Origin: an uncultured Verrucomicrobiota bacterium
GTDB lineage: Bacteria; Verrucomicrobiota; Verrucomicrobiia; Limisphaerales; UBA9464
NCBI GenBank assembly: GCA_903907925.1
Contig: CAIVQB010000106.1
Coordinates: 88,990 to 152,989, forward strand
DNA: 64,000 nucleotides
Direction: 5' to 3'
The position numbers and the translations under genes are program-made. This document shows, piece after piece, positions 13,150 to 44,503 of the stretch. The notes below the pieces were generated by a model. That model did no database searches. It worked only from the letters and a program-made list of their open reading frames with translations, and had not been told where the DNA came from. Position 1 is the stretch's first letter. Each line of letters starts with the position of its first letter.

Positions 13150-13782
13150 TCAATTCCGCGCGGCGAACTGCACAAAATTCGAAAGCAACCGCAGCCCGAC
13201 GCCCTGGCTTTTTTCCGGATGGAATTGGGTCGCCCAGACGTTCTCCTTCCGAACAGCAGCAGCGAAGGGGACGCCATAGTCCGTCTGCCCGGCGATGATC
13301 GAGGCGTCCGCCGGCTTGGGAAAGAAGCTGTGGACGAAGTAAAAATGGCTGTTGTCCGGAATGCCCTCGAACATCGGGCAACCCGGCTGCGTGATAGACA
13401 CCTCGTTCCAGCCAATCTGCGGCACCTTGAGATGCGGTTCGGCTGGCGTCGGATGAAAACGGACCACCGGCCCCTGGAAAACGCCGAGCCCGAGGGCGCA
13501 GGAATTGAATTCCTCGCTGCGTTCGAACAAGGCCTGATAGCCCACGCAGATCCCCAGAAACGGCCGGCCGGACCGGATCCATTCCGAGACCGCCGCTCCC
13601 AGTTCCTGGCGATGCAGGGCGTTCAGGCAGTCGTCGAATGCCCCGACGCCCGGCAGGACCACTCCATGCGCCCGCTTAAAATCGTTCGGGGATGCGACCC
13701 GTTCCACCTCGGCACCGGCGGCACGGAGGGCCTTTTCGACGCTGCGGATATTTCCGGCGCCATAGTCAAGAAGCGCGAGCAC
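13150..13782 (-). CDS. hisH: Imidazole glycerol phosphate synthase glutaminase subunit HisH
   Basis: HisH hydrolyses glutamine and passes ammonia to HisF in the fifth step of histidine synthesis. The 210-residue product is a class I glutaminase: DYGAGN at 6-11, LPGVGAF at 43-49, nucleophile C79 in LGICVGYQ (the usual motif is GICLGMQ), and H188 and E190 in QFHPEKSQ. The GTG at 13782 gives the correct N terminus (LALLDYGAGN); the frame is open upstream, but that part is a low-complexity pyrimidine-rich stretch. It lies 146 bases after rlmN on the same strand. hisF is not in the window; hisA is found alone 30 kb away, so histidine genes are scattered here. Confidence 0.92.
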   Translation of the reverse strand: MLALLDYGAGNIRSVEKALRAAGAEVERVASPNDFKRAHGVVLPGVGAFDDCLNALHRQELGAAVSEWIRSGRPFLGICVGYQALFERSEEFNSCALGLGVFQGPVVRFHPTPAEPHLKVPQIGWNEVSITQPGCPMFEGIPDNSHFYFVHSFFPKPADASIIAGQTDYGVPFAAAVRKENVWATQFHPEKSQGVGLRLLSNFVQFAARN

Positions 13783-13928
13783 GGGGGGAGAATGGGGGAA
13801 AATTGCGGAGAAGGCAAAAAACGAAGGTAAAATGAAAAATGAAAAAGGAAGAGGCTGCACGGAATCGCCAGCAACCGCGCGGTATTGCCAAGAGCGCCAC
13901 AACTCGCTTGGTAATTCTCACCAAAACA

Positions 13929-40294: not shown

Positions 40295-41308
40295 TTAACG
40301 GCGGCGGCGTTGATAGGCGGCTAGTCCCGCGATGCCCAGGAGGCCCATCAGGCCGGGCAATGAAACCGGAGTTTCGGGGACGCCGACGATGGAGTTGATC
40401 CATTCCACGTTGCTGGAAATTCGGGTCGCGACCCATTCGGCGGGGATGTCCTGAACCGCATCGGGGATGCTTCCAAAACCATCCAGATAAAGCCCGCCGG
40501 CATCGAAGACCGCGGCTTGGAAACTCGAACCGTCGGTGGGCGTGAACCGCCATCCGGTAACGACGCCGTAGTTGATGCCGGCCAGTTTCCAGACACCGTT
40601 CTCCTGGATGAACACCCCGCCGCCGCTGTCTCCGTTCGAGAGCGTGACCTCATCAGGAAGCCCGCCGGCGGTCGTGGTGTCACCCGGAGTCGAGACCCGG
40701 TCGAAATCAGCGCCCAACAGGCTGCCCAAGCCCTGCGCGGAGGCATCCTCGATGGCGGATACCACATTTTGCCCCCAACGGGTTTGGAAATCAGTAGATC
40801 CCCAAAGCCAGCCACGGTTGGCGGTCGGACTCGCGCCGGGAACGTCGACCTCATCGCCGCGCAGGGTTCCGCGTCCAAAGACGGTCAGGGTCTTGCCCGC
40901 CTCGTCTGAACCCTGGTAGAGCGGTGCCCAGGTGGGAAATGGATGATCGACCTTCATCAGGGTCAGATCGGAATTGGGACTGTTCCAGGCCGCAGTCGTC
41001 GTATAGGTCTGGCCCTGAAACGAGACCACCGCACCGGGTGCGCCGCCAACGTGCCGGGCGGTGATCATGTATTCCGGCGCGATGGCAGTGGCGAGGACGG
41101 AGCCGTACTGGATTTCCCATTGCCATCCGCTGCCGTCGCCGGGATCGGTGACGTTGTGCGAGGGATCGCCAGTGCTGTAAAAAATAAGTGCCCGCGAGGG
41201 AAGCGGGGCAGCGACAAGGATCAACGCCACGATCAGGGCTTTTCGGAAGGCAGGATTCTCCCGAGGGATCAGAAGAGTTTTGTCCGGGCGCTGGAGGTTG
41301 GCCGTCAT
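40295..41308 (-). CDS. Exported trypsin-like serine protease with PEP-CTERM-like anchor
   Basis: A 337-residue secreted chymotrypsin-fold protease with a full catalytic triad: H86 (ITARHVGG), D114 (NSDLTLMKV) and S228 (SNGDSGGGVF). The N-terminal signal is RKALIVALILVAAPLPSRA (about 22-40) after a polar leader. The C terminus has VPETPVSLPG at about 308-317, a hydrophobic helix and RRRR, the layout of a PEP-CTERM sorting signal. The protease is thus likely held at the outer membrane or released after sorting. It is convergent with frr and divergent from the symporter gene. Its target is unknown. Confidence 0.85.
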   Translation of the reverse strand: MTANLQRPDKTLLIPRENPAFRKALIVALILVAAPLPSRALIFYSTGDPSHNVTDPGDGSGWQWEIQYGSVLATAIAPEYMITARHVGGAPGAVVSFQGQTYTTTAAWNSPNSDLTLMKVDHPFPTWAPLYQGSDEAGKTLTVFGRGTLRGDEVDVPGASPTANRGWLWGSTDFQTRWGQNVVSAIEDASAQGLGSLLGADFDRVSTPGDTTTAGGLPDEVTLSNGDSGGGVFIQENGVWKLAGINYGVVTGWRFTPTDGSSFQAAVFDAGGLYLDGFGSIPDAVQDIPAEWVATRISSNVEWINSIVGVPETPVSLPGLMGLLGIAGLAAYQRRRR

Positions 41309-43714: not shown

Positions 43715-44503
43715 TCACGGGGCATTTCGAGCCGACTTTCGGCTAAGTCGATCCCGGTTGAACTCAACGCAGTCCGAGTACCGAACCCCGCTTCCGCCGA
43801 AGATGTCGAGGGCGCTGCCGATGGTCAGATCGATCCGACCCTGACCGATCCGTTCGACTTCCTGAAGGTCGGCGAGCGACCGGGCGCCGCCGGCGTAGGT
43901 GGAGGGCAGGGGACACCCTTCTGCGAGCAGGGCGACCAGTTCTGAATCGATTCCGCGACACAATCCTTCGACATCGACCGCGTGGATCAGAAACTCGACG
44001 CACCACGCTGCCAGTTGCGAAAAGGTGTCGGCGTTGAGTTTCAATTCGGTGAATTTTTGCCACCGGTCGGTCACGACGAAGTAGTCCTCACCGCGTTTCC
44101 GGCAGCTCAGGTCGAGGATCAACCGGCTTCGGCCAACGCGGGATTCCAGTTCTTTGAGGCGGTCCCAATCCAGGCGCCCGTCGCGGAAGACCCACGACGT
44201 GACGATGACGTGCGACGCCCCGGCATCGAGCCAGCCGGGGGCGTTTTCGGCGGTGATTCCGCCCCCGATCTGGAGTCCACCCGGCCATGCCGCAAGCGCC
44301 TCGCGTGCAGCAGTTTCGTTTCCTGGTCCCAGTTGGATCACGTGGCCGCCGGTGAGGCCGTCCCGACGATAGAGATCGGCGTACCAGCCGGCCGGTCGTT
44401 CCGAGACGAAGTTCGTCTGAACTCCTGCTCCGGTGTCGGACAAGGTGCCCCCGACGATCTGGGTCACGCGGCCTTCGCGGAGGTCGATGCACGGTCGGAA
44501 CAT
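43715..44503 (-). CDS. hisA: HisA, eukaryotic-type phosphoribosylformimino-AICAR-P isomerase
   Basis: HisA catalyses the Amadori isomerisation of ProFAR, the fourth step of histidine synthesis. The 262-residue product begins FRPCIDLREGRVTQIVGGTL, the form seen in plant and fungal HIS6, rather than the IPAIDLxxGxxVRL start of common bacterial HisA. Catalytic aspartates are D7 and D131 (LILDLSCRK), and QIGGGI is at 78-83. The C-terminal half (FLIHAVDVEGLCRGID, STYAGGARSLADL, DLTIGSALDIFGG) also fits the eukaryotic-type clade. It stands alone, divergent from the small receiver-like gene and convergent with the DUF6188-like gene. hisH lies 30 kb away. Confidence 0.88.
   Translation of the reverse strand: MFRPCIDLREGRVTQIVGGTLSDTGAGVQTNFVSERPAGWYADLYRRDGLTGGHVIQLGPGNETAAREALAAWPGGLQIGGGITAENAPGWLDAGASHVIVTSWVFRDGRLDWDRLKELESRVGRSRLILDLSCRKRGEDYFVVTDRWQKFTELKLNADTFSQLAAWCVEFLIHAVDVEGLCRGIDSELVALLAEGCPLPSTYAGGARSLADLQEVERIGQGRIDLTIGSALDIFGGSGVRYSDCVEFNRDRLSRKSARNAP

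Follow-up and report, generated by a model that had tools for sequence, protein, structure and literature searches.

The hisA locus and its genomic context

The window, which is the whole stretch of 64,000 nucleotides analysed here, contains on its minus strand (43715-44503) a hisA gene of the eukaryotic type, annotated as a ProFAR isomerase from a profile match and an AlphaFold fold. The reading frame is intact, with an ATG start, no internal stop and a product of 262 amino acids. In hmmscan, the product matches the eukaryotic profile TIGR02129 (hisA_euk) over residues 2-250 with 371.3 bits (2.8e-111, cut-off 229.3), and it scores only 61.9 bits with the bacterial HisA profile TIGR00007 (cut-off 228.95). 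The score with the HisF profile TIGR00735 is 21.4 bits, against a cut-off of 294.55. These values agree with an earlier note on this DNA, which had recognized a HisA of the plant and fungal HIS6 kind instead of the common bacterial one.

Among solved structures, the best relatives are Medicago truncatula HISN3 (9fcf, 276 bits) and Saccharomyces cerevisiae His6 (2agk, 242 bits), and the next HisA is the standard bacterial enzyme 4gj1 with 42 bits. The identity of the window HisA in a common alignment is 53% to Medicago and 51% to yeast. Its AlphaFold model (mean pLDDT 92) shares the fold of these two characterised members, with 9fcg as the best match (Z 38.5), followed by 2agk (Z 34.4), and with 5abt as the best standard HisA (Z 26.0). 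The protein is a eukaryotic-type HisA in both family and fold, and the pathway context suggests that it acts as a ProFAR isomerase. There are also differences from the two eukaryotic enzymes: Medicago HISN3, a plastid protein, has additional residues in the loop that follows strand 1, and yeast His6 has a one-residue insertion and a VAMN motif, neither of which is present in the window HisA.

A search of the genome with PF00977 gives three places: this hisA, a HisF gene on contig C49 (TIGR00735, 334.5 bits) that encodes a homologous TIM barrel separately, and a match of 54 positions on contig C1 with 23.6 bits, at the cut-off. Neither PF00977 nor TIGR00007 finds a standard hisA in this genome, about 4% of which is missing. 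The eukaryotic type is thus the only HisA here, which answers a question raised by the earlier note. The same note described an orphan gene away from hisH. The distance holds, as hisH (13150-13902, minus strand; TIGR01855, 201.2 bits), encoding the amidotransferase subunit of the pathway's next enzyme, lies 30 kb from hisA. The position is not peculiar, however: hisF, hisB (contig C36), hisG (C78) and hisD (C1) are each on a different contig, and with the his genes scattered in this way, an isolated hisA is normal for this genome.

Congeners keep the flanks of hisA, a sodium/solute symporter gene at one end and receiver-like and HemQ genes at the other. Comparison with five relatives (NG86) gives a low dN of 0.15-0.20 against a saturated dS of 1.35-2.0; for congeners, dN is about 0.15 and dS about 1.4-1.8. 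Contamination or a pseudogene was considered and rejected, as the frame is intact, the neighbours are conserved in congeners and dN is low. As a separate observation, the ORF at 40295-41308 of the window (minus strand) has a trypsin-like look and a C-terminal tail resembling a sorting signal (VSLPGLMGLLGIAGLAAYQRRRR), PEP-CTERM-like by eye; it has no NCBIfam match.

Candidate catalytic residues

As a ProFAR isomerase, the window HisA would carry out the fourth step of histidine synthesis, in which an aldose is isomerised to a ketose, with a TIM barrel as its scaffold. The standard enzyme of bacteria (TIGR00007; S. enterica HisA, 4gj1) has the same barrel, an aligned first catalytic Asp and presumably the same reaction, but the window HisA scores 62 bits against its cut-off of 229 and is about 19-22% identical to it, and its strand-6 motif TDxxxDG is HAxDVEG in the window HisA. 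We compared candidate residues in a signature alignment of 184 rows, 171 of them distinct; its loci were in part selected for their similarity to yeast, so that counts from it are not frequencies.

Asp7 (codon 44483-44485, minus strand, as for all codons here) aligns with the Asp mutated in ligand-bound structures, namely D57N in Medicago (9fcf and 9fcg) and D7N in S. enterica. Model residue 1 pairs with residue 51 of 9fcf, which places Asp7 opposite Asp57 and S. enterica Asp7; this pairing is based on structure entry titles and aligned ranges. The column is Asp in 170 of the 171 distinct rows, and the sole Asn belongs to the D57N mutant chain itself. Three further positions are invariant in all 171: Asp131 in LDLSC (44111-44113), His174 (43982-43984), where the profile alignment shows strand 6 of standard HisA ending in YTD, and Glu179 in DVEG (43967-43969). 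The TDxxxDG motif, which is invariant in 10 standard HisA rows, is absent from the window HisA, which reads HAVDVEG instead.

We propose Glu179 as the general acid in place of the second catalytic Asp of standard HisA, because it is opposite the invariant Asp of TDxxxDG in the profile alignment and is itself invariant, while the neighbouring Asp177 varies in 6 of 171 rows. We take the second catalytic Asp to be Asp176 of S. enterica HisA, a residue whose mutation is named in a structure entry title. Asp7 would be one catalytic acid/base, and Glu179 would stand in for the second Asp.

Distribution of the two HisA types

Within the order of the window, TIGR02129 exceeds its cut-off in 57 of 58 genomes, including the window's own. 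The exception (G032) is a genome of 70% completeness, and two genomes (G014 and G051) have split matches. TIGR00007 exceeds its cut-off in none of the same 58. With this distribution, the conserved neighbours in congeners, and the grouping of the window HisA with its own genus and family in the trees described below, we conclude that the gene was inherited vertically within the order, with no recent gain. The earlier note had raised gene exchange; as a recent event in this bacterium, it does not fit a gene that serves the whole order as its usual HisA and is found in many other bacteria. The window hisA is a member of a known family and an ordinary gene for its order.

We then surveyed 144 genomes of the phylum, each at least 90% complete, with both HisA profiles on the same set. 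The eukaryotic type is present in 57 and the standard type in 75, and no genome has both. The rest comprises four genomes just below the standard cut-off (223-225 bits), one with a fragment, and seven with neither type near threshold (G062, G070, G097, G126, G134, G162 and G170), which may be histidine auxotrophs or may have a further HisA type. Two genera are mixed across species: in g34, G078 and others have the eukaryotic type and G108 the standard one, and in g48, G197 has the eukaryotic type and G142 the standard one. A family named for eukaryotes is widespread in bacteria and substitutes for standard HisA between close relatives. The mutual exclusion of the two types is not absolute: among 30 genomes with named loci, taken from the best 80 loci described next, two MAGs (G348 and G364) have both.

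A scan of genome contigs gave at least 593 confirmed stretches (of at least 594), and the best 80 of 593, those closest to Medicago, were kept, a choice that biases this set toward the plant side. These 80 include loci from Thermodesulfobacteriota (Desulfobacterota), Armatimonadota, Latescibacterota, Gemmatimonadota, Myxococcota, Kiritimatiellota, Lentisphaerota and Verrucomicrobiota, and also from Lachnospiraceae and other Bacillota, Paenibacillaceae, Endozoicomonadaceae (Endozoicomonas), Scalindua, Nitrospina and Fibrobacteria. In Thermodesulfobacteriota, the phylum of Desulfobacter latus (G345), the type is found in 9 of 118 genomes, two of which were known beforehand. Since the family is broadly bacterial, the most fitting reading of "eukaryotic HisA" is an old alternative HisA of bacteria, which would have displaced the standard enzyme altogether in some parts of Verrucomicrobiota and in a patchy manner in other groups.

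The slot between hisH and hisF is often occupied by hisA. The order hisH, eukaryotic-type hisA, hisF is found in 4 of the 80 named loci (L120, L123, L130 and L157), all from Paenibacillaceae (Cohnella/Paenibacillus), and appears to be an in-place replacement of the standard gene. For the other 76, hisH and hisF were not found in the flanks examined, which extend up to 6 kb and are often shorter.

At the profile level, the resemblance to standard HisA is weak (18% identity, hhalign probability 98), as would be expected for a paralogue with another isomerase function. We consider such a paralogue extremely improbable: the genome has no other HisA, the match to the yeast and plant HisA family is at the equivalog level, and the gene swaps with standard HisA without overlap in the 144 genomes and holds the hisA slot in Paenibacillaceae.

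Phylogenetic positions of the yeast and Medicago enzymes

The only two eukaryotic members of the family found in the PDB, yeast HIS6 and Medicago HISN3, represent eukaryotes in all comparisons, which limits the weight of the pattern described here. The first tree has 81 rows, after 33 of the best 80 loci were dropped as redundant and 31 of the 59 order and phylum loci other than the window's own were used. In this tree, yeast HIS6 is located among Verrucomicrobiota rows (10 rows, 99/96*) and Medicago elsewhere, in a group of 56 rows (100/95*). The window HisA groups with its own genus and family, L111 (Verrucomicrobiales) with the window's order, and the Kiritimatiellota and Lentisphaerota rows with rows of the same phylum; these last groupings indicate that the window is from Verrucomicrobiota. 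Forcing yeast and Medicago into one clade costs 54.8 log units (AU p 0.0069). The second tree has 89 rows, with 11 of the 81 dropped and 19 added. Yeast is found here in groups of 23 rows (99/99*) and 18 rows (100/96*), nearest to family f44 (99/80*), and Medicago in one of 52 rows (99/91*); the window HisA stays with its own genus and family, and the AU p value of a yeast and Medicago clade is 1.4e-5. Neither eukaryotic enzyme groups specifically with the window's order in these two trees. In terms of identity, however, L015 from that order is one of the closest rows to yeast (54.8%), which counts against the explanation that we favour below.

For a rooted tree, 25 of the 89 rows were dropped and 11 standard HisA rows served as outgroup, with L187, a standard row read in the wrong frame, left out. 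The eukaryotic type and standard HisA are split with 100/100, and the window HisA is outside ordinary bacterial HisA; the grouping that would have refuted the earlier note is thus not seen. Yeast and Medicago are again apart, both inside bacteria, and the forks joining yeast with Verrucomicrobiota have 94/95 and 81/97, without an asterisk. With some 10 changes per column on the branch to the outgroup, the position of the root is not trustworthy. The exact sister of Medicago shifts between the three trees.

The description of TIGR02129 reportedly proposes a eukaryotic (plant) origin for the Fibrobacter gene. A transfer from eukaryotes such as plants to bacteria would fit the naming of the family from eukaryotes and the presence of a Fibrobacteria locus (L128) among our matches, but it is very improbable as an explanation of the gene, since the type is carried by nearly all of the order (57 of 58 genomes) and occurs in many phyla, the eukaryotes are two tips at separate places within bacterial diversity, and L128 does not group with Medicago in any of the three trees. 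We therefore rejected plant-to-bacterium transfer on distribution and trees. The other suggestion of the earlier note, that the eukaryotic gene goes back to an old bacterial source, is supported in its general form by a broadly bacterial family that has its eukaryotic members within bacterial diversity. A 2024 paper on HISN3 reportedly put forward a source other than cyanobacteria for the plant enzyme.

Sequence signatures also bear on whether yeast and Medicago belong apart. In the signature alignment, 35 of the 171 distinct rows carry an insertion of one residue after TSxxF: yeast and 34 others, all from the phylum of the window. At the VAMN position, 31 of these 35 also read MN and another two IN. 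Both the insertion and a VAMN-type motif are missing from Medicago. Two loci of the same class as the insertion rows (L219 and L223) are without the insertion in this alignment. When both diagnostic segments were removed, yeast still grouped with Verrucomicrobiota rows (18 rows, 99/95*), and the AU p value of a yeast and Medicago clade was 0.053.

This rise of the p value and the long yeast branch (1.2-1.4) would suit a single eukaryotic acquisition, with the separation of the two enzymes as a long-branch or model artefact. We regard a single acquisition as rather unlikely, given the AU p values on full columns, the insertion and VAMN-type motif, which yeast shares with Verrucomicrobiota rows and Medicago lacks, and a yeast-Medicago identity of 45%, lower than that of either to many bacteria. 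Since the p value climbs to 0.053 without the diagnostic segments, we consider two bacterial sources of yeast and plant HisA likely, not proven. The specific account in which eukaryotic HisA is a bacterial invention acquired at least twice, fungal HIS6 (with yeast as representative) from a Verrucomicrobiota-like donor within that phylum and plant HISN3 (with Medicago as representative) from another bacterial lineage, is in our judgement slightly better than an even bet; the form shared by plants and fungi would then reflect separate transfers and not common eukaryotic descent.

Taken as a whole, our best explanation, to which we assign a probability of roughly 0.8, is that the window hisA encodes the sole ProFAR isomerase of its genome, that it is of an old bacterial type inherited vertically in the order, and that eukaryotes acquired it from bacterial donors, most likely on two or more occasions. 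The point of interest is the bacterial breadth of the family and the different bacterial neighbours of its two sampled eukaryotic members. A literature search found no paper on this bacterial HisA family or on separate plant and fungal HisA sources. The two-source pattern yields a concrete proposition open to test, that one and the same step of the pathway reached yeast and plants from different bacteria. If selective inhibitors are aimed at plant and fungal HisA, bacteria with this form would need checking too.

A scan of viral contigs, which sought more eukaryotes, gave two phage loci instead. On an IMG/VR contig of 72 kb (L196:4992-5738), a eukaryotic-type hisA directly follows groEL and hsp20 and precedes an endolysin-like ORF; on a second IMG/VR contig (L195:4992-5765), the same type is found in the company of some 30 ORFs that are very short and for the most part in one orientation. 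The two group together (100/98*) on the yeast and Verrucomicrobiota side of the tree. The hisA of L196 is a metabolic gene in phage DNA, and such phages may be a vehicle for transfers. We also note a eukaryotic-type HisA with 50.6% identity (MT839235.1:3639-4403, L239) on an unannotated faecal scaffold of 4.5 kb named "Bacteriophage sp.".
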